Shown: piece after piece, positions 3,958 through 31,013 of the stretch | How positions within the stretch are numbered: position 1 is the stretch's first letter | Layout of the letters: every line of letters begins with the position of its first letter | Origin: Povalibacter uvarum | GTDB lineage: Bacteria > Pseudomonadota > Gammaproteobacteria > Steroidobacterales > Steroidobacteraceae | Assembly (NCBI RefSeq): GCF_014202975.1 | Contig: NZ_JACHHZ010000005.1 | Coordinates: forward strand, 558,001-622,000 | Length of the DNA stretch: 64,000 nucleotides | Direction: 5' to 3' | Position numbers and translations under genes: made by a program | Notes under the pieces: generated by a model | What the model was told of the DNA's origin: nothing | Seen by the model: the letters and a program-made list of their open reading frames with translations, nothing else | Databases searched by the model: none

Positions 3958-5220
3958 TCAGCCGCGCAGCAGGTCGCAGAGACTCAGGGAAACCACGCAG
4001 GTTGCACGCTGCAGATCATTCAGGCGCAGGCACTCATCCGCCATGTGTCCGTTCGCTTCCTGCAGGGTGCGTGGGCCGGCGCCGTAAAGCACGGTGGGGA
4101 TGCCGGCCTGCGAGTAATGGCGTGCGTCCGTATACAAGGGCACGCCCGTACGTTCGATCGGCGTCTGGAAGATGCGGCTGCCGTGGCTGCGCAGCGACTC
4201 GATCACCTTCGCCGCGCCAGGCAGTTCGATCAGCGGCGCCGCGAGCAGGATGCGCTTGATGTCGACAGTGATCCCGGGTCGATTGGATACGGCCTTCTCG
4301 ATCAATGCGCGCAGTTCGGCCTCCGCGGTCGGCGGCGATTCTTCGGGAATGATCCGGCGATCGATGCGCAGCGTCACCCGGTCAGGCACGACGTTCGTGT
4401 TGATGCCGCCGGAGATCAGGCCGACGTTGATGGTCGCGCTGCCGATGCCGGGCACCGCCGACACGCGCGTCGCGAGTTCCTTCCGGTACGCATAGATCGC
4501 GTTCAGGACCTGGCTCGTCGCTTCGAGCGCATCGATGCCGGTGGAGGGAATCGCGGCATGGCCCGACTTCCCGTTGACGGTGACTTCGAGATGCAGGCAG
4601 CCGTTGTGCGCCGTCGTCACCGCGTAGGAAAAGCCGGCGCAGATGACGAGATCCGGACGGCTCAGCTTCTGTTCGAGCAGCCAGCGCGGGCCGATCTCGC
4701 CGCCGACTTCTTCGTCGTACGTGAGATGCAGTTCGACGGTGCCGTTCAGCTTGACGCCCTGCGCTTCAAGGTGGCGCAGCGCGAATATCGTCCACGTGTA
4801 GGTCGCGAAATCGGACTTGCTGACCGCAACGCCACGTCCCACCATGACCGGACCATGTTTCGGATCATCGACGATCTCGGCGCCGTAAGGATCGTGCGTC
4901 CAGCCGCGTCCGGGTGGAACGACATCGCCATGCGCGTTCAGCGCGATCGTCGGCCCGCCCTGGCCGAATTTTTCGCGCACGATCAGGCTGGTTGCCGAGA
5001 TCATGCCGTTCTCGCGCACGACGTCATCGGGGACGACGTGGCTCTCGACCTTGAATCCGAGGCCTTCGAGCAATACCTGCGCTCGGCGGGCGGCGGCGGC
5101 GCAATCGCCTGGCGGGTTGTCGCTCGGCACCTTGACGATCTCGGCGAGGAAGTCGCGTTCTTTCGCGAAGTCCTTCGCGACGAACTGGGTGACGAGAGTT
5201 TCGATGTCGGGCGTCGTCAT
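3958..5220 (-). CDS. M20 family metallohydrolase (ArgE/DapE-like), last gene of the purine operon
   Basis: A 420-residue member of the M20 family of binuclear zinc amidohydrolases. Visible motifs are H97 and D99 (NAHGDVVPPG) and the acid pair E170/E171 (YDEEVGGE). The family normally has an aspartate bridging both metals in a motif like GRGAADMKG; here the matching stretch is GRGVAVSKSD, with valine at that position. No signal peptide. Its ATG overlaps the stop of the allantoate amidohydrolase fusion by 4 bases. By position it is a candidate for a late ureide step such as ureidoglycolate or ureidoglycine hydrolysis, which other M20 enzymes perform; that is inference only. Confidence 0.85.
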   Translation of the reverse strand: MTTPDIETLVTQFVAKDFAKERDFLAEIVKVPSDNPPGDCAAAARRAQVLLEGLGFKVESHVVPDDVVRENGMISATSLIVREKFGQGGPTIALNAHGDVVPPGRGWTHDPYGAEIVDDPKHGPVMVGRGVAVSKSDFATYTWTIFALRHLEAQGVKLNGTVELHLTYDEEVGGEIGPRWLLEQKLSRPDLVICAGFSYAVTTAHNGCLHLEVTVNGKSGHAAIPSTGIDALEATSQVLNAIYAYRKELATRVSAVPGIGSATINVGLISGGINTNVVPDRVTLRIDRRIIPEESPPTAEAELRALIEKAVSNRPGITVDIKRILLAAPLIELPGAAKVIESLRSHGSRIFQTPIERTGVPLYTDARHYSQAGIPTVLYGAGPRTLQEANGHMADECLRLNDLQRATCVVSLSLCDLLRG

Positions 5221-6956
5221 GAGTCGCTTCCGAAGTGGAGCAGGAAATTCTCGAATGCCTTTGCGGCCAGCGCCGCATCGGCCGTCGTCATCGTCTCGTC
5301 AGGATGATGGCTGATGCCGTCGTTACCGCAGCGGACGAACAGCATGCCCATCGGTGTAATCTCGGCCATCTTCATCGCATCGTGACCGGCGCCGCTGGGC
5401 AAGTGGCGCGGCGAGGCATCGCCCATGACGCGCGAAATGCTTTGTGCCCACCGCTGCTGCATCGATGAATCGCACGGTGCCGCCGCGGCGCGCATCATGA
5501 GCTGCGTGTCGATCTCGACGTTGCGACGCTCCGCGATCTTTTCGATCTCCGCCAGCACGTCGGCCAGTGCGGTGTCGCGAGTTGCATCTTCGGGCGCGCG
5601 CAGGTCGAGCGTCAGATCGCAACGTCCGGGAATGACGTTGATCGCGCCGTTCGGCACATTCAGCCGACCGACGGTCCCGACGACCCCAGGCGTGGCCTTG
5701 CATCGCCGCTCGACAGCAAGAATGAGCTCGGCCGCCGCCGCGGCAGCGTCGCGACGCAAGTGCATCGGCACTGTGCCTGCGTGACCCGCAAGGCCTCTGA
5801 TGGTCACGCTGTACCTCACGCTGCCCGCGATACCTGTCACGACGCCGAGCGCTCGATCCTCGTCCAGGAGCACTGGGCCCTGTTCGATGTGAATCTCGAC
5901 GTAGCCGAGCAACTGCCGCGGATCGCGCTTGATCGCCGCAATGCCTGCCGGGTCGAGCCCCGCGCTGGTCATGGCTTCCCGCATCGTCGTGCCTGAACCG
6001 TCCTTGTTCTCGAGCCACGCCGGGTCGAACGAACCGGCGAGCGCACTGCTGCCGAGGAAGGTCGACTTGAAGCGCACGCCTTCTTCGTCGGCGAATCCCA
6101 CGATCTCGAGATCGAAAGGGAGCTGCTTGCCGCGCTGGCGCAGCTCGAGTGCGACCGCGATCGGCAGCACGACACCCAGGCGGCCATCGAACCGACCGCT
6201 GTTGATGACGGTGTCATAGTGGGAGCCGATGATCAGTGTCTTCGCGTTGCCCGCATTGGATCGCAGCCGCCCGACGACGTTACCGACGGCGTCGATATGA
6301 GTCTCGAGATTCGCGGCCAGCATCCAGTCCCGGATACGGTCCGCAGCGGCGATGTGCGGCGGTGTGAGATAGGAACAGGTCAGTGCGTCGGGATCTTCGG
6401 AGAGGTGCGCGAGTTCCTCGAGCATGCCCATGATCTCGGCGCCATACGGCGATGCGACGCGCTCCGCAAGCCGGAATCCGGCGATGCGGCCGATCTGCGC
6501 AAGCGCGGTCTCGCCTTCGACCGACGGATCGTTTCCGAGCCGCTGCTCCATGGCGCGGATGATCGACGCAGGGGTGTGACCGCGAACCGCGAGGATGAAG
6601 GGGAAAGCGAAGCGTTCGCGGTACTCGGCATTCAGTTCGTGCAGACGGGCGAACTCTTCTGGCGTGCAGGAGTCCAGGCCCGCGCCTCTCTGTTCGCGCG
6701 TCGACTCGACGGTGAGCTCTTTGCGGATCGCAGCCTTGCCAGCGAGTTCCGGGTGGGCGCGAATGAGCGCCAGTTGTTCATCGAGATCCGCTGTCGCAAC
6801 GACCGTACGCATCGCTTGCAACAAGTGCGCGCGTGAAAGGAACGGGCGCGCGACTTCGACGCGAGTCGCGACCCACGGCGAATGTTCGAAGATGCCGTCG
6901 AGCGCGGCAACGAACTCCGCGGGTGAGGCCTGGTTGAGCTGATCAAGTGTGATCAT
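5217..6956 (-). CDS. Fused OHCU decarboxylase (UraD) - allantoate amidohydrolase (AllC-like)
   Basis: A 579-residue two-domain protein. Residues 1-165 match OHCU decarboxylase, which makes S-allantoin from 2-oxo-4-hydroxy-4-carboxy-5-ureidoimidazoline: the HPELAGK motif (H68) and STREQRGAGLD (85-95) are intact. Residues about 170-579 are an M20 allantoate amidohydrolase/beta-ureidopropionase-type domain with metal ligands H246, D248 (SHYDT), D257 (RFDG) and E291/E292 (DEEGVRF). It starts at the ATG overlapping the allantoinase stop by 4 bases and ends overlapping the next gene by 4 bases. The domains catalyse the steps before and after allantoinase, which is encoded just upstream. Separate genes are the commoner arrangement. 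Confidence 0.93.
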   Translation of the reverse strand: MITLDQLNQASPAEFVAALDGIFEHSPWVATRVEVARPFLSRAHLLQAMRTVVATADLDEQLALIRAHPELAGKAAIRKELTVESTREQRGAGLDSCTPEEFARLHELNAEYRERFAFPFILAVRGHTPASIIRAMEQRLGNDPSVEGETALAQIGRIAGFRLAERVASPYGAEIMGMLEELAHLSEDPDALTCSYLTPPHIAAADRIRDWMLAANLETHIDAVGNVVGRLRSNAGNAKTLIIGSHYDTVINSGRFDGRLGVVLPIAVALELRQRGKQLPFDLEIVGFADEEGVRFKSTFLGSSALAGSFDPAWLENKDGSGTTMREAMTSAGLDPAGIAAIKRDPRQLLGYVEIHIEQGPVLLDEDRALGVVTGIAGSVRYSVTIRGLAGHAGTVPMHLRRDAAAAAAELILAVERRCKATPGVVGTVGRLNVPNGAINVIPGRCDLTLDLRAPEDATRDTALADVLAEIEKIAERRNVEIDTQLMMRAAAAPCDSSMQQRWAQSISRVMGDASPRHLPSGAGHDAMKMAEITPMGMLFVRCGNDGISHHPDETMTTADAALAAKAFENFLLHFGSDS

Positions 6957-7876
6957 GCGGGGTGGGTCGCTATCCAGTGTCGTGCGATATCGATGCGCCG
7001 ACAGATCCAGACCTTGTCGTGCGACTGAGCGTAGTCGAGGAAGCGTTCGAGCGACGCCAGCCGCGCCGGTCTGCCTATGATGCGGCTGTGCAGTCCGATC
7101 GACAGCATCTTGGGACGGTCGAGCCCTTGCGGGTCGCCCTCGAGATACAGCGTGTCGAAAGCGTCTTTCAGATAGTCGAAGAACTGCGTACCCGAGTTGA
7201 ACCCCTGGGCTGTCGCGAAGCGCATGTCGTTGGTGTCGAGCGTGTAGGGCACGACGAGATGCGCTCCAGTGCCGCGAGACGTTGCCACTCGCGTCCAGTA
7301 CGGCAGGTCGTCGGCATACGAATCCGCGTCGTAGACGAAGCCGCCGTGCTCGACGATCAGTCGACGAGTGTTCGGGCTGTCGCGACCGGTGTACCAGCCA
7401 AGCGGGGCGGTGCCGGTGACTTCGCGCAGGATCGAGACGGCTTCCTCGATGTGACTGCTCTCGGTCGCTGCGTCGATCTGCTGATAGCTGATCCAGCGCA
7501 GGCCGTGACACGCAATCTCGTGACCGAGTTCCGCGAACGCAGCCGCCGCTTCCCTGTGTCGCTGCAATGCCATGGCGACTGCGAAGATCGTCAACGGCAG
7601 CTTTCGCTTCTCGAATGCGCGCAACACGCGCCAGAGTCCGGCGCGCGAGCCGTATTCGTAGAGCGATTCCATGCTCAGGTGCCGCATGGGGAACGCCTGT
7701 GCGCCGATGATCTCGGACAGGAATGTTTCGGACGCCGCATCGCCGTGAAGCACGGAGTTCTCCGCGCCCTCTTCGTGATTGAGCACGAACTGCAATGCGA
7801 TGCGCGCGCCGCCCGGCCACCGTGCGTGTGGTGGCGAGCGGCCGTAGCCGATGAGATCTCGCGGATAGGGTTTCAT
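6953..7876 (-). CDS. puuE: Allantoinase PuuE (polysaccharide-deacetylase fold)
   Basis: A 307-residue allantoinase of the PuuE type, which opens the hydantoin ring of allantoin to allantoate and is unrelated to metal-dependent AllB. The N-terminus MKPYPRDLIGYG, the stretch QFVLNHEEGAENSVLHGD and the ACHGLRW motif are characteristic of PuuE. The family has the NodB/polysaccharide deacetylase fold. No signal peptide, so cytoplasmic. Start and stop overlap the guanine deaminase and the UraD fusion genes by 4 bases each, which places it firmly in the ureide operon. Confidence 0.95.
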   Translation of the reverse strand: MKPYPRDLIGYGRSPPHARWPGGARIALQFVLNHEEGAENSVLHGDAASETFLSEIIGAQAFPMRHLSMESLYEYGSRAGLWRVLRAFEKRKLPLTIFAVAMALQRHREAAAAFAELGHEIACHGLRWISYQQIDAATESSHIEEAVSILREVTGTAPLGWYTGRDSPNTRRLIVEHGGFVYDADSYADDLPYWTRVATSRGTGAHLVVPYTLDTNDMRFATAQGFNSGTQFFDYLKDAFDTLYLEGDPQGLDRPKMLSIGLHSRIIGRPARLASLERFLDYAQSHDKVWICRRIDIARHWIATHPA

Positions 7877-9210
7877 TGCGACCTTGCGCTTCGCTTGATG
7901 AGGGCGGGCTGACCCAGCACATACGTTGCGGCTACACAGCGATCGTCGCCCAATGTCATGAACAGCAGCAAGCGCTCGACGAGATTCTTCGATTGCGCCA
8001 TGCGGCGGGCCAGCAAGGGCGTTGCGTCCGGGTTCAACACGATGAAATCCGCCTCGGTCCCGGCGCCGAAGTGTCCGATACGATCTTCCAGGCGAAGGCA
8101 GCGGGCACCGCCCAGCGTCGCGAGATAGAACGCCCGGAGCGGCGACAGGTGCTGGCCCTGCATCTGCGCGACCTTGTAGGCCTCGCTCATCGTCCGAAGC
8201 ATGCTGAAGCTGCTGCCGCCCCCCACGTCCGTTGCCAGTGAGAAACGCAATCCGGCGGCATCAGTCGCGGCGATATCGAAGAGACCGCTGCCGAGATAGA
8301 GGTTCGAAGTGGGGCAGAAGGCCGCGGTCGCGCCGGTCGTGGCCATGTGCCGTCTATCCTGCGCGTCGAGATGCAGGCAGTGGGCGTATGTCGCCCGATC
8401 GCGCAGAAGCCCGAAACGATCGTACACATCGGTGTAGCTGCGGCTGTCGGGAAAGAGCTTGCGCACCCACTCGATCTCGTCGCGATTCTCGGCGAGATGG
8501 CTGTGGATGAAAACGGTCGGGTACTCCTCGGCGATGCGCCCGGCGCTTGCCAGCTGCGATTCCGACGACGTCGGTGCAAAGCGAGGCGTAATCGCGTAGT
8601 GCAGCCGGTCGCGATCGTGCCAGGTCTCGATGAGCTGTCGCGTGTCGGTGTCGCCGCTGGCGGCTGTGTCCTGGAGATACTCCGGCGCGTGGCGATCCAT
8701 CAGCACTTTGCCCGCGATCATTCTCAGGCCACGGCGCTGCGCGGCCTGGAAGAACTCGTCGATCGCGGCGCGATGCACCGTGCCCAGGACCTGCGCGGTC
8801 GTCGTACCGTTGGCGAGCAGTTCATCGAGGAAGAACTCGGCGACTTCCTGCGCGTGTACCGGATCGGCGAAGCGACCCTCGACGGGGAACGTGTAGTTCT
8901 CGAGCCAGTCGAGCAGGTTGCTGCCGCCCGAGCCGATCACGTCGGTCTGCGGGAAATGAATGTGCGTATCGATGAAGCCGGGAAGCAGCAGTCCCCGCCC
9001 GTGATCCATGATCGGCAGGTCTTTCGGTAACTGACTGAGCATCGCTGGCGCCGGCCCGACTGCTTCGACACGACCACCGGCGACGAGCAGCAGGCCGTCG
9101 TCCCAGTATTCATAGGCATCGGTGCCATGACGGCCCGGATCCTGCCGGAAATGCAGGACAGCGCCGCGATGCGCAAGACGGTTCACGTGGCTATCACTGG
9201 GGCGCGCCAT
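7873..9210 (-). CDS. guaD: Guanine deaminase
   Basis: Converts guanine to xanthine and ammonia, feeding xanthine dehydrogenase encoded in the same operon. The 445-residue amidohydrolase shows the metal-binding pattern HIHFPQTD, HSHLAEN, a following HCLHLD, and TDVGGGSSFSM near the active-site aspartate. The substrate-specific stretch after the first motif (IGSGGSNLLDWLENYTFPVE) is typical of GuaD. I chose the ATG at 9210 (MARPSDSHVNR), which has GGATC upstream and overlaps the puuD stop by 17 bases. A GTG at 9237 would lengthen it by 9 residues. Its stop overlaps puuE by 4 bases. Confidence 0.94.
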   Translation of the reverse strand: MARPSDSHVNRLAHRGAVLHFRQDPGRHGTDAYEYWDDGLLLVAGGRVEAVGPAPAMLSQLPKDLPIMDHGRGLLLPGFIDTHIHFPQTDVIGSGGSNLLDWLENYTFPVEGRFADPVHAQEVAEFFLDELLANGTTTAQVLGTVHRAAIDEFFQAAQRRGLRMIAGKVLMDRHAPEYLQDTAASGDTDTRQLIETWHDRDRLHYAITPRFAPTSSESQLASAGRIAEEYPTVFIHSHLAENRDEIEWVRKLFPDSRSYTDVYDRFGLLRDRATYAHCLHLDAQDRRHMATTGATAAFCPTSNLYLGSGLFDIAATDAAGLRFSLATDVGGGSSFSMLRTMSEAYKVAQMQGQHLSPLRAFYLATLGGARCLRLEDRIGHFGAGTEADFIVLNPDATPLLARRMAQSKNLVERLLLFMTLGDDRCVAATYVLGQPALIKRSARSQ

Positions 9211-10396
9211 GATCGATCCATGAAATGACGGTTGCACGCTCTTCCGCAGTCATGCCCGTGACGTTGCCGATGGGCATGATGTTCGTCGCAAGCTGCTGCC
9301 GCGTCTGTGGCAGCGAAGCGAGGATGTGTTCTCTCGTGTCGAGCAGCATTCCATTGGGGGCGACCGCGAAGCCCGGGAATGTTGGTGTCGCCGAGTGGCA
9401 TGGCTGGCAGCGTGCACGGAAGATCGCCTCGATCTGCGCCATCTGGCCCGGTGCCGCTCCCGTTGAATTGCCTTGTGCCGGTGCCAGCGCGACCGCAACG
9501 ACTGCGAGCGTCGCGATGCCGATCAGTGCAGGGATCGGCGATGTGCGGCCGCCGCGTTCGTGGGCCTTGTGTCGAGCAACGAACCAGGCGCGAATCGCCG
9601 CGCCCGCAATCGACAGCCCGATCAGGACCAGCCAGTTCCGAGTCGCGCCGTATGTCATCGCGTAGTGGTGGCTGATCATCGTGAACAGCACGGGCAGCGT
9701 GAAGTACGTGTTGTGAACGGAGCGCTGCTTGCCGCGCAGGCCGTGAATGGGATCGGGAGCGCGATTCCCGAGCTTCGCCTTCACGAGCTCGCGCTGGCCC
9801 GGAATGATCACGAAGAAGACGTTCGCCACCATGACGGTGCCGAGCGCGGCACCGAACTGGATGAATGCGCCACGGCCACTGAAAATATGGCACAGAGCCC
9901 AGGCTTCGAGCGCCAGCAGCACTGCGAGCACAGCGCCGAGAGCGCGATCGTTCCGTCCGAGCGGCGAGCGGCACAGCAGGTCGTAAATGACCCACGTGCC
10001 GGCAAGGAAGCCGAGACCGAGCGCGATCGCCATGGGCTTCGAGAGCTGGGCGACTGCCGGATCGATCAGATACAGTTCCGCGCGTCCGTAGTAGAGCAGG
10101 CACAACAGGAAGAAGCCGGACAGCCAGGTCGTGTAGGCCTCCCAGTAAAACCAATGCAGTGTTCCTGGAAGCTTCTCGGGAGCAACGCGATATTTCTGCG
10201 AGTGATAGAAGCCGCCGCCGTGCACGGCCCAGAGCTCGCCCGCGACGCCCGCATCCTGTGCTTCTTTGCGCTCCGGTGCGAGCAGGTGATTGTCGAGCCA
10301 GACGAAGTAGAACGATGCGCCGATCCAGGCGATGCCGGCGATCAGGTGCAGCCAGCGCCCCAGGAGACTCAGCCAGTCGAACAGGTACGCTTCCAT
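9194..10396 (-). CDS. puuD: Urate hydroxylase PuuD, membrane protein with C-terminal cytochrome c domain
   Basis: A 400-residue inner-membrane urate oxidase of the PuuD type, which converts urate to 5-hydroxyisourate and can pass electrons to the respiratory chain. About eight membrane segments span residues 10-310 (LLGRWLHLIAGIAWIGASFY at the start). The C-terminus is a cytochrome c domain: CQPCH (C330, C333, H334) with M374 in NIMPIGN as probable sixth ligand. No soluble uricase gene is seen, so this should be the urate-oxidising step. It lies 4 bp after an ABC permease gene and overlaps guaD. Confidence 0.95.
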   Translation of the reverse strand: MEAYLFDWLSLLGRWLHLIAGIAWIGASFYFVWLDNHLLAPERKEAQDAGVAGELWAVHGGGFYHSQKYRVAPEKLPGTLHWFYWEAYTTWLSGFFLLCLLYYGRAELYLIDPAVAQLSKPMAIALGLGFLAGTWVIYDLLCRSPLGRNDRALGAVLAVLLALEAWALCHIFSGRGAFIQFGAALGTVMVANVFFVIIPGQRELVKAKLGNRAPDPIHGLRGKQRSVHNTYFTLPVLFTMISHHYAMTYGATRNWLVLIGLSIAGAAIRAWFVARHKAHERGGRTSPIPALIGIATLAVVAVALAPAQGNSTGAAPGQMAQIEAIFRARCQPCHSATPTFPGFAVAPNGMLLDTREHILASLPQTRQQLATNIMPIGNVTGMTAEERATVISWIDHGAPQ

Positions 10397-10400
10397 GCGA

Positions 10401-11327
10401 TCAACCGTCGGGGTGGAAACTGCGGCCGAGCGATGCCGGCTGGTTCAGCAGGATCGTCTTGGGATTGCGGCAGATGAGCACGAGCACGACGATCGTTGCG
10501 AGATACGGCAGCATCGACAGGAATTCACTCGGTACGTCGACGCCCAGGCCCTGGGCATGCAACTGCAACACAGTCACGCCACCGAATAGATACGCGCCGA
10601 GCAGCACGCGCAACGGCCGCCATGTCGCAAAGACGACGAGGGCGAGCACGATCCAGCCGCGGCCGGCGCTCATGCCTTCGACCCACATGGGCGTCAGCGC
10701 GGTCGAGAGGTATGCGCCCGCCAGGCCGCTCGTCGCGCCGCCAAACATGACGGCGAGATAGCGGATGCGAACAACGGGATAGCCGAGCGAGTGCGCGACG
10801 CCCGGCGCTTCGCCGATCGCGCGCAGCCGCAAGCCGGCGGCGGAGCGATAGAGGAACCAGCTCACCGCTGCGTAGAGGGCAATCGACAGGTAGACGAGCA
10901 GGTCGTAGCGGAAGAGTGCGGGACCCAGTACGGGAATGTCCGCCAGCAGGGGGATCGGGACTGCCGGCACGCGTTCGATCGGCAGACCCACGAAGGGCTG
11001 TCCGACGAACGCGCTCAGTCCGACGCCGAACAGCGCGAGCGCGAGACCGGTAGCGACCTGGTTCGTCTGCAGCGTCAGCGTGAGCAGTCCGAAGAGCAGT
11101 GCCATCGCGGCGCCCGCCGACATCGCCGCGACGTAGCCGAGAAACAAGCTGCCGCTCGTGACACCGACGCCGAATGCGGTCACTGCACCAACGAGCATCA
11201 TGCCCTCGACTCCGAGGTTCAGGACACCGGCACGTTCGTTCACGAGCACGCCGAGCGCCGCAAGGATCAGCGGCGTTGCAGCGGCGACCGTGCTCGCAAA
11301 GATCAGGATGAGCGTGTCGATGTTCAT
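10401..11327 (-). CDS. ABC transporter permease, nucleoside/purine type (YufQ/NupQ-like)
   Basis: A 308-residue membrane protein of the BPD_transp_2 permease group found in BMP-type nucleoside uptake systems. Hydrophobic segments cover almost the whole length; NLGVEGMMLVGAVTAF near residues 37-52 is the conserved signature of this permease type. It overlaps the partner permease by 4 bases and belongs with the ATPase at 12451 and the binding protein at 19383. In this operon it should import purine bases or nucleosides released in the periplasm. Confidence 0.92.
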   Translation of the reverse strand: MNIDTLILIFASTVAAATPLILAALGVLVNERAGVLNLGVEGMMLVGAVTAFGVGVTSGSLFLGYVAAMSAGAAMALLFGLLTLTLQTNQVATGLALALFGVGLSAFVGQPFVGLPIERVPAVPIPLLADIPVLGPALFRYDLLVYLSIALYAAVSWFLYRSAAGLRLRAIGEAPGVAHSLGYPVVRIRYLAVMFGGATSGLAGAYLSTALTPMWVEGMSAGRGWIVLALVVFATWRPLRVLLGAYLFGGVTVLQLHAQGLGVDVPSEFLSMLPYLATIVVLVLICRNPKTILLNQPASLGRSFHPDG

Positions 11328-12445: not shown

Positions 12446-12450
12446 GGCAC

Positions 12451-22754: not shown

Positions 22755-22764
22755 GCGCAGGCGC

Positions 22765-22936: not shown

Positions 22937-23003
22937 TCAAACGTGCTTGGGGGAAGGCGATCGGTACTGGCCGTACCTTCAAGCCACTAGGGGACTCATT
23001 TCA

Positions 23004-25397
23004 ATGAAAAGCTCTTTGCTCGCTCGCGAGATTCGCGCGATCTGCCTGTTGTCGCTGGGTGTCGCGTCGATCGCTCACGCCGAACCCGATTCAGCCGTGC
23101 TGGACGAGGTGATCGTCGAAGGCGATCGCATCAACGTAATTCCAACCGAGAAGCTCGAGTCGGTGTTCGGCTTCGGCAAGACCGCAGTGGAAACGCCGCG
23201 ATCGATCACGACCATCAGCAAGGAGATGCTCGACAAGGTGCTGATCACGGAGATCGATGACCTGGTCGCCCTGACGCCCGGTTCGTTCACCCAATCGTTC
23301 TTCGGCGTCGCGGGTTCACTCGACGTGCGCGGCACGCCCGGCGAAAACTACTTCCGCGGCGTGAAGCGCATCGACAACCCGGGCAACTATCCGACGCCCA
23401 TCGGTGCGAGCGATCGTATCGACGTGGTGCGCGGCCCGGCATCGCCGATCTACGGGCCGTCGAAGATCGGCGGCTACCTGAACTTCGTACCGAAGTCGGC
23501 GCGCGCATCGACGGGGCAGCTGATGAACCAGGCGACCGGCGAGATCGGTGTGACGATGGGCAGCTGGGACAAGAAGGTGATCAGCGCTGAAGTTGGCGGC
23601 CCCGGAGAACTGTTCAACAAGCCGCTCGGCTACTACCTCTACACCGAGTTCGAGAACTCGGACAGCTACTACGACAACACCACGACCGATCAAAGCCTGT
23701 ATCAGGCCTCGTTCGACCTGGCGCTCACCGACACGTCGCGCCTGGAGTTCGGCGGCATGTACCAGGACTACAAGGGAAATCAGGTGGCGGGCTGGAACCG
23801 CCTGACACAGGAACTGATCGACGACGGCACATACATCACGGGCAGTCCTCCGTCGCTCGATACCGATGGCGACGGCTTGCTGTCGGCAGACGAGTCCAAC
23901 GCGGGCGCTGGCCTGGCGGCCTTCCTGTTCGGTCCGCAGACACCGCAGAGCATCCTGGCGGCGCTGCAGGCCAATCCGAATCTCAATCTCGAGAATCCGG
24001 GCACCGCGCACATCGACGGCAACACCGTGCTGGTACAGGAAGACGATACGCTGGAAAGCGAAGTGCTGACGCTGTACTTCGACTACATCTACGAGTCCGG
24101 GAACGGTCTCATGGTGACGAACAAGACGTTCTTCGAGTCGCTCGACAACGTGAACGAGAATGCCTACGGGTTCTCGCAGATGGCGGACACGTGGGTGGTC
24201 GAGGATCAGCTGGTCATCGGCTACGAGTTCTCGCCCACGGATGTGGTCGAGGCAAGCGTCCAGGTCTCCCCGTCGATCCGCCATCAGGACTTCGAGCACG
24301 GCGACAACTTCGACAACGAGTACTTCGATCGCCGTGACATCACGTTGCCGGGCTCGCCGATCGACCGACGCACGATGGCGACGCGCGGCCAGGAAAACTA
24401 CTCGCAGCACACCGTCGGCGACTTCACCAACTACGCGCTTGCAGCGATGGCGGATGTCACGTTCTTCGGGAAGCTGAACCTCCTTGCCGGCGCCCGCTAC
24501 GACTATCTGGACATGAAGTCGGAAATCCTCGCCGACTCCAACGACAGTCCCGGAACGCAGGCGGACGACACGGACAGTGCGACGTCCTGGTCGGCCAGCC
24601 TTTCGTATCAGCTGCCGTGGGGCTTGCGCCCCTACGTGACCCGGGCGGAGCAGTCGACGCTGATCCTCGGCCAGGGCGGCCAGATTCCCGCGCTCGCGCT
24701 GGCAGACGGCAACGCCGTCGCAGATTCGGAGCTCACGGAGTACGGCATCAAGGCTGCGATGCTGGAGAACAAGCTGTATCTCGCGCTCGACTACTTCGAG
24801 CAGGAACGTCTCGACTACAACGCGCAGGACACGGTGACGAACAACACCACGCGTGCCGAAGGCTATGAGTTCGAAGCCCGCTGGGTCGTGACGAACAACG
24901 TCACGCTCACGGGCGCCTACACGAACCTGAAGGTCTACAACATGGGCGCGCTCGACGCAGGCTCCCAGTTCAGCTTCGTGGGCGCAGCCGACCTGCAGGG
25001 CGTCGATCCGTCGCTGCTCTACGGAGGGGTGGGTCTTCATGTCGTGGGAGTCGACGGCAAGGAGGATGCGCGCAAGGCCGGCATCCCGGAGACCATGTTC
25101 AGCGTCTATGCCATGTTCAGCTTCGACGGCATGCTTTCGGGGCTGACCGGATCCATCGGCGGCTCGCACGTCGACTCGGTCTATTCCGGCTTCGCAAAGA
25201 ACATCAAGCTGCCCAGTTACACGCTGCTCAACGCGAGCGTGTATTACGAAACCAGCAGCTGGAAAGTCGGCCTGCAAGGCAAGAACCTGACGGACGAACG
25301 CTACTTCCGCTCGAACTTCCCGGACCTGTTCGGGAATTCGGTGGTGTTGCCGGAGTTGCCGCGCAGCTACCTGGTGTCGGCGGCGTACAAGTTCTGA
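23004..25397 (+). CDS. TonB-dependent outer-membrane receptor (probable purine/nucleoside uptake)
   Basis: A 797-residue receptor with signal peptide (MKSSLLAREIRAICLLSLGV, cleavage near AHAEP), a TonB-box-like stretch LDEVIVEG at the mature N-terminus, a plug domain about residues 45-170 (TPRSITTISKEML, RIDVVRGPASPIYGPSKIGG) and a beta-barrel ending in the aromatic YKF. Nothing in it proves the substrate. Its place between the exported adenosine deaminase and exported nucleosidases suggests nucleosides or related purine compounds. The ATG at 23004 is chosen because the signal peptide begins there. Confidence 0.9.
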   Translation: MKSSLLAREIRAICLLSLGVASIAHAEPDSAVLDEVIVEGDRINVIPTEKLESVFGFGKTAVETPRSITTISKEMLDKVLITEIDDLVALTPGSFTQSFFGVAGSLDVRGTPGENYFRGVKRIDNPGNYPTPIGASDRIDVVRGPASPIYGPSKIGGYLNFVPKSARASTGQLMNQATGEIGVTMGSWDKKVISAEVGGPGELFNKPLGYYLYTEFENSDSYYDNTTTDQSLYQASFDLALTDTSRLEFGGMYQDYKGNQVAGWNRLTQELIDDGTYITGSPPSLDTDGDGLLSADESNAGAGLAAFLFGPQTPQSILAALQANPNLNLENPGTAHIDGNTVLVQEDDTLESEVLTLYFDYIYESGNGLMVTNKTFFESLDNVNENAYGFSQMADTWVVEDQLVIGYEFSPTDVVEASVQVSPSIRHQDFEHGDNFDNEYFDRRDITLPGSPIDRRTMATRGQENYSQHTVGDFTNYALAAMADVTFFGKLNLLAGARYDYLDMKSEILADSNDSPGTQADDTDSATSWSASLSYQLPWGLRPYVTRAEQSTLILGQGGQIPALALADGNAVADSELTEYGIKAAMLENKLYLALDYFEQERLDYNAQDTVTNNTTRAEGYEFEARWVVTNNVTLTGAYTNLKVYNMGALDAGSQFSFVGAADLQGVDPSLLYGGVGLHVVGVDGKEDARKAGIPETMFSVYAMFSFDGMLSGLTGSIGGSHVDSVYSGFAKNIKLPSYTLLNASVYYETSSWKVGLQGKNLTDERYFRSNFPDLFGNSVVLPELPRSYLVSAAYKF

Positions 25398-25451
25398 TGA
25401 GCGGGTGATGGGGTGATGTCACTTCATCACCTCGCCCGTCTCCATGTCTGA

Positions 25452-25559
25452 CTGTGGGTCCGGCTTTAGCCGGACGTCAGCCGAAGGCTCTGCTGTCCGA
25501 CGCAGTCGGACAAGGGAGTCGCTGGCGCGATGACGTCCGGCTGAAGCCGGACCCACAGG
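25452..25559. repeat. REPIN-like repeat, family B, copy 1
   Basis: A 108-base element with outer inverted arms CTGTGGGTCCGGCTTTAGCC and its complement, and an inner hairpin (GTCCGACGCAGTCGGAC). A second copy with only a few differences lies at 31206-31312. The arrangement of two inverted REP sequences is that of REPINs. Confidence 0.88.
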
Positions 25560-25596
25560 AAGACGTCATCACCCATCACAACATCAAGATTCATCC

Positions 25597-26514
25597 ATGC
25601 TTCGACTCGTCACCCGCATCGTCACAGCAGCCCTCGCTCTCTGCGGTGCCCCCGCGTTCGCCGCCTCCGTCAACGATTTCCCCAAAGCCAGAATCGCGAT
25701 CGTCGGCGGCACGTTCATGAACGACGCGCTGCTGAAGCGCAAAGACCTCATCAAGGGGTCGTTCAAGATCAAGACCAAGGTGGGTGAGTCGCCGACGATC
25801 TATGCCTGCGAATCAGGCGGCGTCCCGTTCTACTACGTTCACGGCCACGGAGAAGGAAAGTGGGTGGAGACGTGGGCGGCGCTCTACGATCTCGGGGTTC
25901 GTGATGCGATCGGCGGCGCAACGGCCGGCGGGATCAACAAGTCGATGAAGCTGTACGACTATGTCGTGCCCGATGACTTCATCGATATGAACGTCGACCG
26001 GCCGCTCGCGATGCCGCTGGTCGTCTATCGCGATCCGAATGCGATTCCACTGCCGCGCTACACACCGGCGATGGATCCGTTGCTGCGCCAGATCCTGATC
26101 GAGGAAACGCGTGAAGCACTGCGCGCTTCGCACGACTACGACGACATCCAGATTCACGAGCAGGGCGTGGTCATCCAGGCCCGGGGCGGTCGCTTCGAGA
26201 CGGCCGCCGAGATCCGCATGTTCGCAACCTGGGGCGCCGACCTCGTGACCATGAACGTGGGCACCGAAATGGCGTATGCCCGCATGATGGGCATCAACTA
26301 TGCCTCGTTGGTCGCCATCTCCAATCCCGCGGAAGGGGTGGGCGAGTGGGAATGGGACACGCTCAAGAATGTATACCCGAGGCTGAATCCTCTGAGCCTG
26401 CGGATCGTGCTTGCCACGCTTCCGCGCATTGCCGCGATCGGGGATGATGTGCCCCGCGTCGGCGACGGTCTTCGGATGCATCCGGAAATGACCAGCGAAC
26501 CGACGGCACATTAG
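25597..26514 (+). CDS. Exported nucleoside phosphorylase family protein (MTAP/PNP-like)
   Basis: A 305-residue protein of the PNP/MTAP phosphorylase fold with a signal peptide (MLRLVTRIVTAALALCGAPA, cleavage near AFAAS). The stretch GGRFETAAEIRMFATWGADL followed by MNVGTEMAYAR matches the methylthioadenosine/purine nucleoside phosphorylase active-site region. Such enzymes cleave the glycosidic bond of purine nucleosides with phosphate, and usually work in the cytoplasm. The leader makes this one periplasmic. It lies after a REPIN-like repeat and before two other exported members of the same superfamily. Confidence 0.82.
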   Translation: MLRLVTRIVTAALALCGAPAFAASVNDFPKARIAIVGGTFMNDALLKRKDLIKGSFKIKTKVGESPTIYACESGGVPFYYVHGHGEGKWVETWAALYDLGVRDAIGGATAGGINKSMKLYDYVVPDDFIDMNVDRPLAMPLVVYRDPNAIPLPRYTPAMDPLLRQILIEETREALRASHDYDDIQIHEQGVVIQARGGRFETAAEIRMFATWGADLVTMNVGTEMAYARMMGINYASLVAISNPAEGVGEWEWDTLKNVYPRLNPLSLRIVLATLPRIAAIGDDVPRVGDGLRMHPEMTSEPTAH

Positions 26515-26522
26515 TGGCCTCC

Positions 26523-26591
26523 GTCATGCTCGCGCAAGCGGGCATCCATCCGGACCGAGAAGAATGGATTCCCGCTTGCGCGGGAATGACG
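26523..26591. repeat. Inverted repeat pair, family A
   Basis: GTCATGCTCGCGCAAGCGGG and the near reverse complement CCCGCTTGCGCGGGAATGAC flank a short centre, filling the gap between the exported phosphorylase and the first NUP gene. Confidence 0.85.
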
Positions 26592-26626
26592 AAGTAGTAC
26601 CGATAAGTCCCGGGGGACGTATTCCA

Positions 26627-27688
26627 ATGACATCGAAATTGCCGCGACATCTGCTATCCACATTGCTGCTGCTATTTTCGGCAGTGATGGCTCACGCCGC
26701 CGAACCGCCGATCGAGATCAAGGTCGTCGTCGTGACGATGTTCGAGATCGGCAAGGACACCGGCGATACGGCCGGAGAGTTCCAGCTCTGGCACGATCGC
26801 CAGAAGCTCGATGAGAAGCTGAAGTTCGCGCATCACCACGATCTGTATCTGAACCGCAAGACCGGCGTGCTCGGCATGGTGACCGGCATGGGCACAGCGA
26901 ACTCCGCAACCGCCGTGATGGCGCTGGCGCTCGATCCGCGCTTCGACCTGTCGAAGGCGTACTGGCTGGTCGCGGGCATCGCCGGGGTCGATCCGGAGGA
27001 CGCGCCGATCGGCTCCGCGGCCTGGGCGGAGTATCTCGTCGACGGCGATCTGGCGCACGAGATCGATGCACGCGAGATTCCCAAGGACTGGAAGACAGGC
27101 TACTGGCCGCTGTTCTCCGCGGGGCCGTACGACCCGAAGCGTCCGGGCGGCAACGGCGAAGTGTTTCGCCTGAATCCCGATCTCACCGAGTGGGCGTACC
27201 AGCTCACGCGTAACGTGAAGCTGAAGGACAACGAGGGATTGCAGAAGACCCGCGCGAAGTTCAAGGATCACGCGAACGCACAGAAGCCTCCCTTCGTGCT
27301 CAAAGGCGACAACCTGGCCGGCATGACGTTCTGGCACGGCAAGCTGCTGAACGAGTGGGCGAACGACTGGACGAAATTCTGGACCGGGGGCAAGGGCAAC
27401 TTCGTCACCTCGGCGATGGAAGACACGGGCAGCTATCTCTCGCTGTCGTACGTGCATCCGACCGGCAAGGTCGACAAGGAACGCATGATGGTGCTGCGCA
27501 CGGCGAGCAACTACACGATGCCGCCGCCGGGCGTCACCGCCGCGCAGCACATGAAGGCCGAGAACGAAGGGTATTCGGGTCTGAACGATTCCGTCGAAGC
27601 TGCCTACGCCGTGGGCAGCGTGGTCGTCGACGAAATCGTCAGGAACTGGGCGAAGTACCGCGACCACACACCACCGCTGAAGAAATAG
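26627..27688 (+). CDS. Exported NUP family protein (purine nucleoside 'permease'), paralogue 1
   Basis: A 353-residue protein of the family named for the Candida purine nucleoside permease NUP. After the signal peptide (cleavage near AHAAEP, about residue 25) there are no membrane segments, so it cannot be a channel. The family belongs to the nucleoside phosphorylase superfamily, and GLVAGIAG-like (WLVAGIAGVDPED) and LRTASNYTMPPPG stretches fit such a fold. The likely role is binding or cleaving purine nucleosides in the periplasm. It is followed after 7 bp by a paralogue with the same order of motifs. Confidence 0.85.
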   Translation: MTSKLPRHLLSTLLLLFSAVMAHAAEPPIEIKVVVVTMFEIGKDTGDTAGEFQLWHDRQKLDEKLKFAHHHDLYLNRKTGVLGMVTGMGTANSATAVMALALDPRFDLSKAYWLVAGIAGVDPEDAPIGSAAWAEYLVDGDLAHEIDAREIPKDWKTGYWPLFSAGPYDPKRPGGNGEVFRLNPDLTEWAYQLTRNVKLKDNEGLQKTRAKFKDHANAQKPPFVLKGDNLAGMTFWHGKLLNEWANDWTKFWTGGKGNFVTSAMEDTGSYLSLSYVHPTGKVDKERMMVLRTASNYTMPPPGVTAAQHMKAENEGYSGLNDSVEAAYAVGSVVVDEIVRNWAKYRDHTPPLKK

Positions 27689-27695
27689 GAACGCA

Positions 27696-28754
27696 ATGAA
27701 CTGCCGATCGCTGCCGATCCTGCTGCCGCTCCTCGGTCTCGCTGCTTGTGCAAAGGAGCCGTTGCCGCGGGCGGCTGCGCCGATTCCTGTGAAAGTTGTC
27801 GTCGTTGCCATGTTCGAACATGGCAAGGTCACGGGCGATGAAGCGGGCGAGTTCCAGCTGTGGGTGGAGCGCGGCAAGCTCGACAAGAGTTTCGAGTTCC
27901 CGATGGGCGAGTACGAACTACGGATGAACGACGCGGGTGTTCTGGCGATCTGCACCGGTGGCGGCATCACGAATGCGACGGCATCGATCATGGCGCTCGG
28001 AACGGATCAGCGTTTCGATCTCAGCAAGGCTTACTGGCTCGTGGCGGGGATCGCAGGCGGAGATCCGCTGGATGTGTCACTGGGGACAGCGGCGTGGTCG
28101 CGCACAGTTGTCGATGGCGATTTGCTGTACGAGATCGATGCGCGTGAGATTCCTGCGGAATGGCCATATGGCCTTCTGCCGCTGGGCGCGAAGAAGCCGA
28201 ACGACAAGGCCGACGGCTGGACGGTCGACACGATCAACTTTCCGCTCAACGGTGGACTGGCTCAGTGGGCTTACGAGCTCACGAAGGATCATCCCGTCGC
28301 GGACAGTGCGGGCATCGCTGAGTTTCGCGCGCAATTCAAAGGCTACGACAACGCGACGAAGCCGCCGTTCGTGACGATCGGAGAGAGCCTCGCCTCCAGC
28401 ACCTACTGGCATGGCGAGAAGATGAACACGTGGGCAAACGACTGGGTGAAGCTCCAGTCCGGCGCCGACTACAATTTCATGATGACCAACATGGAAGACA
28501 CCGGCACGCTGACGGCGCTGCGACGCCTGTCGCGTACACATCGTGCCGACCTGCAGCGCGTAATGGTCCTGCGCACCGCAAGCAACTACACGATGCCGCC
28601 GCCCGGAGAGACGGCGGCATGGAGCACGACGGCGCCATATCCGGAGAAAGGATTGCCCGCAATCGAGGCGGCTTACCAGGTCGGCAATCTCGTCGTGCAG
28701 GAACTGATCGGCAACTGGGCGAAGTACGAGCAGGCGGTGCCGGGCGGGACATGA
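27696..28754 (+). CDS. NUP family lipoprotein, paralogue 2
   Basis: A 352-residue paralogue of the preceding gene (shared motifs VKVVVVxMFE, GDxAGEFQLW, YWLVAGIAGxDP, YTMPPPG). Unlike its neighbour it has a lipoprotein signal with lipobox LAAC (C18), so it should be anchored to a membrane facing the periplasm. The adjacent arrangement points to tandem duplication followed by divergence in location. It has a clear AGGA ribosome site 7 bases ahead. Substrate preference between the two copies cannot be told from sequence. Confidence 0.87.
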   Translation: MNCRSLPILLPLLGLAACAKEPLPRAAAPIPVKVVVVAMFEHGKVTGDEAGEFQLWVERGKLDKSFEFPMGEYELRMNDAGVLAICTGGGITNATASIMALGTDQRFDLSKAYWLVAGIAGGDPLDVSLGTAAWSRTVVDGDLLYEIDAREIPAEWPYGLLPLGAKKPNDKADGWTVDTINFPLNGGLAQWAYELTKDHPVADSAGIAEFRAQFKGYDNATKPPFVTIGESLASSTYWHGEKMNTWANDWVKLQSGADYNFMMTNMEDTGTLTALRRLSRTHRADLQRVMVLRTASNYTMPPPGETAAWSTTAPYPEKGLPAIEAAYQVGNLVVQELIGNWAKYEQAVPGGT

Positions 28755-28783
28755 GCCACCCGGCCGCGTGCAGGTGAACGTCG

Positions 28784-30145
28784 ATGAGCACGCTGCTGGT
28801 CAGGAATATCCATACGCTGGTGACGATGAACGCGCAGCGCGAAGAGCTGCGCAACGCGGCGATCTTCGTGCGCGACCGCGTCATCGAGAAAGTAGGGCCG
28901 ACGAGTGAACTGCCCGCCGTCGCCGATGAAGTCCTCGATCTGCATGATCGTCACGTCGTGCTGCCGGGTCTCGTCAACACACACCACCACTTCTATCAGA
29001 CGCTGACTCGCGCAGTGCCGGCAGCGCAGAACTGTTCCTTGTTCGAATGGCTGAAGACGCTGTATCCGATCTGGTCTCGTCTCACCGCGGAAGGCGTGTA
29101 TGTCAGCACGCAGATGTGCGCGGCGGAGTTGATGCTGTCGGGCTGCACGACATCGAGCGATCATCTCTACCTCTTTCCGAATGATGTGACGCTGGACGAG
29201 GAGATTCGCGCGGCGCGGGATATCGGGATCCGGTTCCATGCGTGCCGCGGCAGCATGAGTGTCGGCGAGAGCCTCGGAGGACTGCCGCCGGATCGACTGG
29301 TGGAGAACGAAGAGCACATCCTTCGCGACAGTCGCCGCGTCATCGAGCAGTTTCACGACTCAGCGCCGTACGCCATGGCGCGAGTAGCGCTTGCGCCGTG
29401 TTCGCCGTTCTCGGTGTCGCCGGCGCTCATGCGCGAATCGGCAGCGCTGGCGCGCAGTTATGGAGTCCGGCTGCACACGCACCTGGCCGAGAATCAGTCC
29501 GACGTCGAGTACAGCCTGGCGCAGTTCGGTCTCGAGCCGGGCGCTTACGCGGAAGCCGCAGGATGGGTGGGGCCTGATGTGTGGCATGCCCATTGTGTTC
29601 GTCTGAGCGATTCCGCGATCTCACTCTTCGGACAGACTGGAACGGGCGTTGCCCACTGTCCCTGCAGCAACCTGCGTCTCGCGAGCGGATTGGCCCCAGT
29701 ACGAAAGATGCGCGCCGCCGGTGTGCCCGTGGGTCTGGGTGCCGACGGTGCTGCATCAAACGATGCTACACACCTGTTGGGCGAAGCCCGGCAAGCAATG
29801 CTGATTGCCCGCGTCCTGGACAGCGACGCTGCTGCTATGACTGCTCGCGAGGCACTGGAGATCGCGACGCTTGGCGGTGCCCGCGTACTCGGACGCGACG
29901 ATATCGGTCGCATCGAGCCGGGTGCCGCCGCTGATTTCATCACCGTCGACATCGATCGACCGTCGTTCGCGGGCGCGCAGCACGATCCGGTCGCCGCGCT
30001 ATTGCTGTGCCACGTGGACTGGGTCGACTACAGCTTCATCAACGGACGCCGGATTGTGGACCAGGGACGATTGACGACGGTGGAATTGCCTGCGCTCGTT
30101 CGAAGGGTGAATCGGCTATCCGCGGCCATGGTCAACGGCATGTGA
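28784..30145 (+). CDS. 8-oxoguanine deaminase
   Basis: A 453-residue amidohydrolase with NTHHHFYQTLTRAVPAAQN, HTHLAEN, HAHCVRLS and GLGADGAASND motifs, the pattern of bacterial 8-oxoguanine deaminase, which makes urate from 8-oxoguanine. The family also includes related aminohydrolases, but the QTLTRAVPAAQN stretch is characteristic. No signal peptide, so cytoplasmic. It would feed oxidised guanine directly into urate, bypassing xanthine dehydrogenase, and fits the PuuD pathway on the other strand. Start ATG has an AGGTGA site. Confidence 0.88.
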   Translation: MSTLLVRNIHTLVTMNAQREELRNAAIFVRDRVIEKVGPTSELPAVADEVLDLHDRHVVLPGLVNTHHHFYQTLTRAVPAAQNCSLFEWLKTLYPIWSRLTAEGVYVSTQMCAAELMLSGCTTSSDHLYLFPNDVTLDEEIRAARDIGIRFHACRGSMSVGESLGGLPPDRLVENEEHILRDSRRVIEQFHDSAPYAMARVALAPCSPFSVSPALMRESAALARSYGVRLHTHLAENQSDVEYSLAQFGLEPGAYAEAAGWVGPDVWHAHCVRLSDSAISLFGQTGTGVAHCPCSNLRLASGLAPVRKMRAAGVPVGLGADGAASNDATHLLGEARQAMLIARVLDSDAAAMTAREALEIATLGGARVLGRDDIGRIEPGAAADFITVDIDRPSFAGAQHDPVAALLLCHVDWVDYSFINGRRIVDQGRLTTVELPALVRRVNRLSAAMVNGM

Positions 30146-30176
30146 GGCCTTTAGCTGCCTTCTTTCCGCGATCCGG

Positions 30177-31013
30177 TCACAAGTATTCCAGCAGGTGCAG
30201 CGAAAACCTCGCCGCCTCCCTCGCCGCAATCGGTCCCAGTCTCAGGTAGTCATCATTCGGCGCTTCCTGCGCGACATTGCTGCCGGCGCGCACGATCAGA
30301 TAAGGCACCCCAAGGGTTTCGCACACGTGCCCGAGCGGTGCGGACTCCATCTCCATGATGTCCGTCTTGAAACGCGTCCGCAGAGTCTCGATGCGCTGCG
30401 CAGTGACGCCGAACAGATCGGAGGACGCGACGACGCCTCGACGGGCAGCGACGGTGTAGGTGGCGTCATTCGCGGTGACCTGCGGACCTTTGTATTCCGC
30501 CAGCGCCTTGTCGGCGATTCTCAGCAACGCTGCGGGCGGCGAGAACGCATTCTCCACCTCGTTGCCATCGTTCGGGCCGTTCATCGGCCGATAGACCATG
30601 TCGTTGCGGGTGAGGCTGCCGTAGTCGTGCTCATACGTGACTGTGGCGACGATCACATCGCCCGTTCGCAGCTCGCGATTGATCCGCGCACCTGTGCCGC
30701 TCATGAGAACGAGCCGCGGCTTGAATTCCGCGATGAACAGCGTCGTCGTCATTCCCGTGAAGGTCTTGCCGATCCCGGTGATCGCAACGACGACCGGCTT
30801 GCCCGCGATCGTGCCGCGATAGTACGGAATGCCCCAGGTCTCGCTCTTAGGCGGATTGCCCATCGCTTCCCGGAACAATGTGATTTCCTGCGGAACGGCG
30901 CCGAGGATGACGATCGTGTCGGAGGGCTTGTAGTGGGCAGGCGTCGCGGGCGCCTCACCAGCGAGCGCGATGGTGGCAGTGAGCAGGCAAAGAGCGGTCA
31001 ATAGGAATCGCAT
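30177..31013 (-). CDS. Exported MTA/SAH nucleosidase-like protein
   Basis: A 278-residue protein with a signal peptide (MRFLLTALCLLTATIALAGE) and the PNP/UDP phosphorylase fold. TIVILGAVPQEITLF, ITGIGKT, MSGTGARIN and the MEMESAPLGHVCE stretch match the nucleosidase family (5'-methylthioadenosine/S-adenosylhomocysteine nucleosidase type); the active-site acid usually in the ME(M)ES motif is present. It is convergent with the 8-oxoguanine deaminase gene. This is the fourth exported member of the superfamily in the locus. The frame is open further upstream into a repeat, but the signal peptide fixes the ATG at 31013. Confidence 0.85.
   Translation of the reverse strand: MRFLLTALCLLTATIALAGEAPATPAHYKPSDTIVILGAVPQEITLFREAMGNPPKSETWGIPYYRGTIAGKPVVVAITGIGKTFTGMTTTLFIAEFKPRLVLMSGTGARINRELRTGDVIVATVTYEHDYGSLTRNDMVYRPMNGPNDGNEVENAFSPPAALLRIADKALAEYKGPQVTANDATYTVAARRGVVASSDLFGVTAQRIETLRTRFKTDIMEMESAPLGHVCETLGVPYLIVRAGSNVAQEAPNDDYLRLGPIAAREAARFSLHLLEYL

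Follow-up and report, generated by a model that had tools for sequence, protein, structure and literature searches.

What does a bacterium gain from a purine-catabolic locus that also encodes an outer-membrane receptor and a set of exported enzymes of the nucleoside-cleaving kind? Such a locus occupies positions 3958–31013 of a stretch of Povalibacter uvarum DNA 64,000 nt in length (contig NZ_JACHHZ010000005.1, positions 558,001 to 622,000; hereafter the window). It holds 21 genes: 13 lie on the minus strand and 8 on the plus strand, arranged as a minus block (3958–19213), a plus block (19383–30145) and a further minus gene, PNPb (30177–31013). Every gene type named in a preliminary description of this DNA was found in its place, confirming that observation, although the total of 20 purine-linked genes given there becomes 21 in our count; the two amidohydrolases that had no name in its list are a guanine deaminase and an 8-oxoguanine deaminase.

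We think it likely that the locus is a purine-nucleoside utilisation system working from the outside in, linked to TonB and releasing bases in the periplasm. A TonB-dependent receptor would carry purine nucleosides across the outer membrane. Within the periplasm, an exported deaminase would, judging by its family, convert adenosine to inosine, and exported nucleosidases of the MTAN/PNP fold, including two members of the NUP family, would, going by fold and active-site residues, split inosine, guanosine and possibly 8-oxoguanosine into base and ribose. Free bases would then cross the inner membrane through an AtzT-like BMP-type ATP-binding cassette (ABC) importer, a role that an NCS2 permease would take in many relatives, and would be broken down for nitrogen by guanine and 8-oxoguanine deaminases, xanthine dehydrogenase, PuuD, hydroxyisourate hydrolase (HIUase), 2-oxo-4-hydroxy-4-carboxy-5-ureidoimidazoline (OHCU) decarboxylase, PuuE and allantoate amidohydrolase. 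A RutR-like regulator would control the set, and in relatives the promoters of the receptor and of the exported deaminase carry a putative RutR-type operator, as do those of the base permease and of xanthine dehydrogenase. The sequence itself provides the gene content, co-occurrence, export signals, predicted fold and operator statistics; what each step acts on, and in which order the compounds flow, we infer from these. The earlier reading of the locus, receptor-mediated uptake followed by breakdown outside the inner membrane, is supported by these comparisons; its authors knew of no described system with the whole set, and we found none in the open-licence PMC literature.

Recurrence of the receptor with exported enzymes

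The receptor (23004–25397, plus strand; PF07715 43.4 bits, cut-off 23.9; PF00593 69.7 bits, cut-off 27) recurs with the same partners in other genomes. We scanned genome contigs with a three-sequence receptor alignment and kept the best 80 of 348 confirmed stretches, which make up 79 loci; their titles include Solimonas, Hydrocarboniphaga, Nevskia, Neiella, Cellvibrio, Thalassolituus, Alteromonas, Pseudocolwellia, Colwellia, Paraglaciecola, Glaciecola and Marisediminitalea. Of the 79 loci, 65 contain NUP and 40 an exported-type deaminase (at least 40% identity). NCS2 permeases of two kinds are present in 37 and 34, PuuE in 26, a RutR-like gene and 8-oxoguanine deaminase in 15 each and a BMP binding protein in 4. 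In 50 loci the receptor is followed, on its own strand and within 700 bp, by the start of a NUP match; in 9 NUP lies farther along that strand and in 4 elsewhere in the locus; 11 have none, and for the remaining 5 the downstream sequence is too short to tell. Where at least 6 kb is available on both sides (55 loci), NUP is found in 45, the exported-type deaminase in 30 and an NCS2 permease in 37. The preliminary description had made its reading depend on such clusters co-occurring in other genomes, and they do.

These counts are not independent, because loci share contigs or genomes and many come from Alteromonas or Paraglaciecola. With loci numbered L and genomes G, L017 and L007 belong to the contig of G004, L034 and L096 lie on one contig, L128, being equal in length, is apparently the contig of L046, L049 and L071 come from one genome, and L079 and L091 are near-identical. 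For comparison, and with the window genome included in each count, 4 of 40 close relatives have a NUP, as do 6 of the 370 genomes sampled for the class and 30 of the 397 sampled for the phylum (18 of 232 by genus in the phylum sample). A receptor at E 1e-120 or better occurs in 3 of the 370 class genomes, two of which, one being the window genome, have both genes; the third (G359) has the receptor among purine genes without a NUP. Because both are rare (6 and 3 of 370), the genome-wide correlation of NUP with the receptor is weak on its own.

The reverse test started from 31 NUP loci of the class and phylum samples (L096, L098–L101 and L111–L136, 26 of them new regions, with G516 and G483 left out). 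It returned the receptor in 7, NUP between xanthine-dehydrogenase-like genes in 2 (G284, G369), an NCS2 permease in 1 and a purine cluster with NCS2 in 1. L100 and L101, from two distant class genomes, have NUP between genes for xanthine-dehydrogenase-like subunits (33–47% identity), and L100 also has a BMP importer and an adenosine-deaminase-family gene close to NUP. Separately, gamma-glutamyltranspeptidase-like, TauE-type permease, amidase, class-V aminotransferase and cupin genes accompany the system in 14 to 19 of the 79 loci, as in L049 and similar Alteromonas loci, a recurring set that resembles the oxamate branch of hpx.

The association extends to an alphaproteobacterium. Plasmid NZ_CP081002.1 of Sphingobium sp. 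V4 carries a receptor 47% identical to that of the window, two NUPs, an NCS2 permease directly after NUP, UraD, an FAD oxidoreductase, HIUase, XdhA, XdhB, XdhC, guanine deaminase, a deaminase resembling the non-exported ones of other loci and a more distant second deaminase (30% identity); within this 37-kb stretch we saw neither a BMP importer nor PuuE or PuuD. The permease scores 390 bits with the xanthine permease model (cut-off 414) and 302 with the NCS2 model (cut-off 292). Among the plasmid records, 45 matched NUP, and six of the matching regions were read. The Sphingobium region is the one just described; in Granulicella an NCS2 permease lies next to NUP; the annotation shows no gene of purine catabolism in the NUP regions of Qingshengfaniella, Roseateles and Mycetohabitans; and a Microvirga stretch that has no annotation gave NUP matches only. 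Such regions without purine genes led us to reject NUP alone as a marker of the system.

Could an ordinary purine-catabolic cluster lie beside unrelated exported proteins by chance? The cytoplasmic half is indeed ordinary and NUP by itself often lacks a purine neighbour, but the co-occurrence, gene order and operator statistics (below) across many genera, together with the receptor–NUP–NCS2 set in an alphaproteobacterium, make such a coincidence extremely improbable.

A further link concerns the energising of the receptor. A module of 5 kb lies between receptor and NUP in 4 of the 79 receptor loci, from Neiella (L030, L031), Thiogranum sp. (L034) and Thalassolituus (L040), and also in L123; it comprises DUF3450, two MotA/ExbB proteins, ExbD, TonB and a TPR protein (by Pfam for L030, by tblastn for the others). 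These TonB–ExbB–ExbD genes beside its relatives are indirect evidence that the window receptor would be energised by TonB.

Exported enzymes and predicted nucleoside cleavage

Signal peptides on the deaminase, the binding protein and the four proteins of the nucleoside-phosphorylase fold are plain by eye. A script of our own was run across the window, L012 and L017–L101. It called signals in 75 of 83 NUPs and 38 of 42 exported-type deaminases; for PNPa and PNPb the counts were 5 of 5 and 5 of 6, and for binding proteins and receptors 6 of 6 and 79 of 85. Control proteins from nine families taken as cytoplasmic, including sequences cut by contig ends, gave 3 of 159; the script is crude and uncalibrated, and it is the contrast between exported and control proteins that counts.

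The exported adenosine deaminase-family protein (21330–22754, plus strand; ADGF-like; PF00962 137.1 bits, cut-off 27) has, besides its signal peptide, the motifs HNH, HAGE, GHG and DD of the adenosine deaminase family. Its scores with the adenosine deaminase models are 125.8 for TIGR01430 (cut-off 216.55) and 119.1 for TIGR01431 (cut-off 315). The window also encodes, 29 kb from the locus (59698–60705, minus strand), a second and apparently non-exported adenosine-deaminase-family protein, which has HCDV where the 3ou8 chain has HAGEE and may be a divergent or altered deaminase.

NUP 1 (26627–27688) and NUP 2 (27696–28754), both on the plus strand and the latter with a lipoprotein-type signal (LAAC), match PF06516 at 389 and 350 bits (cut-off 27). 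We think that these exported proteins are purine nucleosidases, misnamed "purine nucleoside permease". The predicted structure of NUP 1 (pLDDT 91.7) has the MTAN fold, and 49 of the 50 rows of its structural match list are MTANs or futalosine hydrolases. Searching PDB chains with the NUP sequence gave no significant match, and comparing the NUP profile with that of the MTAN-like PNPb gave none either, so that the mapping of the active site relies on fold, topology and spacing. Mapped in this way, without superposed coordinates, NUP Glu51, Glu265 and Arg291 are invariant in alignments of 43 and 39 sequences, and the window NUPs have Asn at the Asp position. The catalytic residues of MTAN are Glu12 and Asp197, both named in PDB titles, together with Glu174 and Arg193. 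The NUP alignment was reduced from 67 clustered sequences to 56 by a length filter and to 41 by an 80% identity filter, and the two window NUPs were added. At the N7 position, every receptor-linked NUP of two sets (43 of 43 and 9 of 9) has Asn, and the 30 other NUPs divide into 14 with Asn, 13 with Asp and 3 with Ser.

The family name implies a different role, in which NUPs are transporters or binding proteins and nucleosides enter whole; it has behind it the literature usage and the yeast complementation by which a Candida NUP named as a permease is reported to help yeast use adenosine (PMC9431476). We hold this to be very unlikely for the MTAN-fold proteins described above, and prefer cleavage by secreted nucleosidases.

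The exported enzymes also include two PF01048 proteins. PNPa (25597–26514, plus strand), a predicted exported nucleoside-cleaving enzyme of the MTAP/PNP type, has MTAP/PNP phosphorylases as its closest relatives; it retains the base-site residues FET and SN and lacks the Arg of the phosphate motif. PNPb (30177–31013, minus strand), a predicted exported nucleosidase of the MTAN type with Asn for the catalytic Asp, has the motifs MEMES and VRAGSN. No PNP_UDP_1 match besides exported PNPa and PNPb was found in the window genome. Were these enzymes phosphorylases, they would yield base and ribose-1-phosphate, as the kinship of PNPa would suggest; the structural list of NUP 1, the MTANs that are the top PDB chains of PNPb and the lost Arg of PNPa point the other way, and we consider phosphorolysis unlikely. 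The window genome has four PfkB-family matches. In a same-genus metagenome-assembled genome (L017:6834-7151), all that is present of PNPa is a C-terminal stretch of 105 aa immediately upstream of NUP1, an indication that PNPa can be lost while NUP stays.

Proposed import of bases, their breakdown and its control

Cleavage in the periplasm would leave bases to be imported, and the importer of the locus is a BMP-type ABC system. It consists of an exported binding protein (19383–20471, plus strand; PF02608) and, on the minus strand, ABC permease 2 (10401–11327), ABC permease 1 (11324–12445; both PF02653) and a double-domain ATPase (12451–13977; two PF00005 stretches). The binding protein, a predicted purine-base binder, is 64% identical to AtzT. 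Among nine quoted AtzT site residues, six are identical in the window protein (S98, F99, E166, N170, W195, N219), Tyr45 is conservatively replaced by W46, and Asn220 and Thr139 become D221 and A140. AtzT keeps guanine through purification and binds guanine at 0.11 µM and adenine at 2.5 µM, and its relative 3s99 is modelled with adenine (PMC6834077). The window genome has no NCS2 match while many relatives' loci have one or two such permeases, so the BMP importer and the NCS2 permease may substitute for each other. The AtzT-type binding protein and the NCS2 base permeases of relatives support bases as the predicted import form; more weakly, so does the non-exported deaminase of relatives' loci, which (tested on L081) is closest to the 3ou8/3pao group, which we take to be adenine deaminase.

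Breakdown of the bases is encoded mainly in the minus block. Curated NCBIfam cut-offs were passed by XdhA, the small subunit of xanthine dehydrogenase (17386–18819; TIGR02963 628.2 bits, cut-off 467), XdhB, its molybdopterin subunit (15074–17407; TIGR02965 1211.6, cut-off 849.5), the maturation factor XdhC (13956–15077; TIGR02964 278.8, cut-off 161.6), HIUase (18809–19213; TIGR02962 123.1, cut-off 87.45), allantoinase PuuE (6953–7876; TIGR03212 511, cut-off 424.6), guanine deaminase (7873–9210; TIGR02967 570.7, cut-off 375.4), OHCU decarboxylase (TIGR03164 190.9, cut-off 96.25), allantoate amidohydrolase (NF006775 514, cut-off 479) and, on the plus strand and with no signal peptide seen, 8-oxoguanine deaminase (28784–30145; NF006055 679.1, cut-off 532). 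The membrane urate oxidase PuuD (9194–10396, minus strand) matched no NCBIfam model, and its identity rests on Pfam Urate_ox_N (PF06181, E 6.6e-129, cut-off passed); the sequence CQPCH near its C terminus points to a cytochrome c domain.

OHCU decarboxylase and allantoate amidohydrolase are both present, as described previously, but as a single fused gene (5217–6956, minus strand) and not as two. The N-terminal third of its 901-aa open reading frame is out-of-frame sequence over PuuE, and the start was reset accordingly; the model that comes closest to such a fusion, NF010373, gives a score of 721 with a cut-off of 1087. By these cut-offs the set from xanthine to allantoate (XdhAB, urate oxidase, HIUase, OHCU decarboxylase, allantoinase and allantoate amidohydrolase) is complete, and the "full ureide catabolism" claimed earlier is borne out to that point, but the end of ureide breakdown is not secure. 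The last step is possibly carried out by an ArgE/DapE-like M20-family amidohydrolase (3958–5220, minus strand; PF01546/PF07687), which falls below the cut-off of each of the best 25 of 49 matching models and comes after the UraD–AllC gene in Solimonas loci L021, L027 and L028 (63–64% identity).

The RutR-like TetR regulator (20500–21195, plus strand; PF08362/PF00440) bears out the likeness noted previously but stays below the cut-offs for RutR itself (TIGR03613 190.7, cut-off 368; NF011584 164.5, cut-off 230). RutR binds TTGACCAnnTGGTCAA; when the window was searched for the box known from E. coli, a single match at chance level came up. A de novo dyad search upstream of 14 RutR-like genes (two of these upstream stretches being short) ranked GACCA-N2-TGGTC first, in 5 of 14 compared with 0 of 70 controls; we take this to be the E. 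coli RutR core. With at most one mismatch, TGACCANNTGGTCA occurs as 73 boxes in 29 of the 79 loci (1.52 Mb), compared with 2 to 6 in five shuffles that keep base composition only. No box lies inside 716 kb of labelled coding sequence, and for 69 of the 73 a labelled gene starts at most 400 bp downstream. Counted per gene copy, boxes precede 24 of 78 receptors, 15 of 33 NCS2b permeases, 15 of 35 non-exported deaminases (these two largely through one shared divergent promoter), 12 of 38 exported-type deaminases, 7 of 36 NCS2 permeases, 6 of 11 xdhA and 6 of 12 rutR-like genes. None was found upstream of the other 22 families, among them NUP (0 of 73), PuuE (0 of 20), 8-oxoguanine deaminase (0 of 15), PuuD (0 of 10) and BMP (0 of 4), as expected for genes downstream in an operon and less so for genes with their own promoter.

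The window promoters share a different element, AAAATTTTTGACTGG at 19267–19281 (plus strand) in the divergent HIUase/BMP promoter and AAAATTTTTGACCGG at 22904–22918 (plus strand) upstream of the receptor. The pattern AAAATTTTTGACYGG, 15 bases long and derived from these very copies, has two exact copies in the 6.32-Mb genome, both in this locus.

Other features of the window stand apart. A paired inverted-repeat element with GTCCGGCTTTAGCCGGAC ends, which looks like a REP/MITE-type repeat, is present twice, at 25458–25552, within the exported-enzyme block, and at 31212–31306, just outside it, with a related half site at 3848. A two-partner secretion pair (41568–51637, minus strand) combines a 2810-aa protein, with a TPS domain and 18 DUF5649 stretches, and a ShlB-type transporter, and a 1243-aa protein (51967–55698, minus strand) unites a protein kinase domain, TPR and an FGE-sulfatase domain. 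An Rfam scan and a tRNA scan gave no matches.

Weight of the evidence and comparison with known systems

Several observations weigh against an outside-in nucleoside system. No NUP lies in the stretch covered for 14 of the 79 receptor loci, and of the 55 flanked by 6 kb or more on each side, 6 have no listed purine family. Weak ABC and M20 matches aside, 20 of the 31 NUP loci have no purine neighbour among the query genes, so that NUP is a general exported protein recruited by this system. The operator is present in 29 of 79 loci, mostly of related Alteromonadales, and no close TGACCANNTGGTCA match was found in the relevant window promoters. The adenosine effect of the Candida NUP fits an adenine-type enzyme better than one specific for 6-oxopurines. 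Our confidence is further reduced by the two deaminases: NCBIfam names the non-exported one adenosine deaminase, which fits nucleosides reaching the cytoplasm, and the closest PDB chains of the exported one, 9nti and 9nte, are ADGF and AMP deaminase, so that nucleotides could be its substrate. Elsewhere the window genome encodes one CNT-type permease, two Nuc_H_symport matches and two IU_nuc_hydro proteins, and the earlier statement that only bases are imported can thus apply to this locus but not genome-wide. One of the two IU_nuc_hydro genes is some 17 kb away from the CNT gene, with one amidase match and no other query gene between them.

The receptor gives rise to the remaining alternative, that what it imports is not a purine nucleoside but a metal chelate, nucleotides, or a free base or some other derivative of purines, and that it shares only regulation and neighbourhood with the purine genes. 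Its closest model and solved relatives are siderophore receptors, a further point against nucleoside uptake, with matches below cut-off or of weak score; xanthine dehydrogenase requires molybdenum and iron, and some receptor relatives lie in loci without a visible purine gene. Yet the receptor is linked to predicted exported nucleoside-cleaving enzymes in 65 of the 79 loci, a purine-type RutR box precedes even receptors without purine neighbours (L036, L071), and ten named recurring unlabelled clusters (about a dozen smaller ones are unnamed) include no iron or molybdenum gene. A different substrate therefore seems to us rather unlikely, and nucleosides the better candidate.

We lean slightly towards a broader proposal: that this is a widespread, previously undescribed form of nucleoside nutrition, in which an active receptor, sometimes with its own TonB motor, is followed by periplasmic cleavage and entry of the bases, and that the whole NUP family, including the Candida protein that gave it its name, consists of secreted purine nucleosidases in which an Asn/Asp residue sets the preference for 6-oxopurine or adenine. 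If so, a misnamed protein family and a recurring receptor class would gain a function, and the uptake, trimming and import logic known for polysaccharides would also serve nucleosides. Purines are cross-fed among ocean microbes (PMC11698098). Predictions of which bacteria use nucleosides and which use bases would change, with many of the loci in Alteromonas, Paraglaciecola and their relatives, and nucleoside analogues may be stripped before entering such bacteria.

The proposed system has partial counterparts among known ones. The nucleosidases resemble MTAN and futalosine hydrolase, including the periplasmic MTAN of Aeromonas (PDB 5b7q, by title), which have a catalytic Asp where the NUPs here have Asn. 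The binding protein resembles AtzT (PMC6834077; PDB 6pi5, 6pi6, 6pii, 3s99), in overall identity and most site residues. It differs in having Asp and Ala for Asn220 and Thr139, and its importer belongs to a nucleoside locus and not to an atrazine context. Described purine and ureide clusters (puuD, xdh, hpx) have the cytoplasmic path from xanthine to allantoate in common with this locus; we know of none with a TonB receptor, exported deaminase or exported nucleosidases. Conventional uptake, through the passive pore Tsx and whole-nucleoside import by CNT or NupG followed by cytoplasmic cleavage, deals with the same nutrients, whereas here a TonB receptor and cleavage before the inner membrane are proposed. 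A parallel in logic is offered by the TonB-dependent carbohydrate loci, which combine a receptor, exported hydrolases and an inner importer: uptake, periplasmic trimming and import would be alike, and the substrate class and enzyme families differ.

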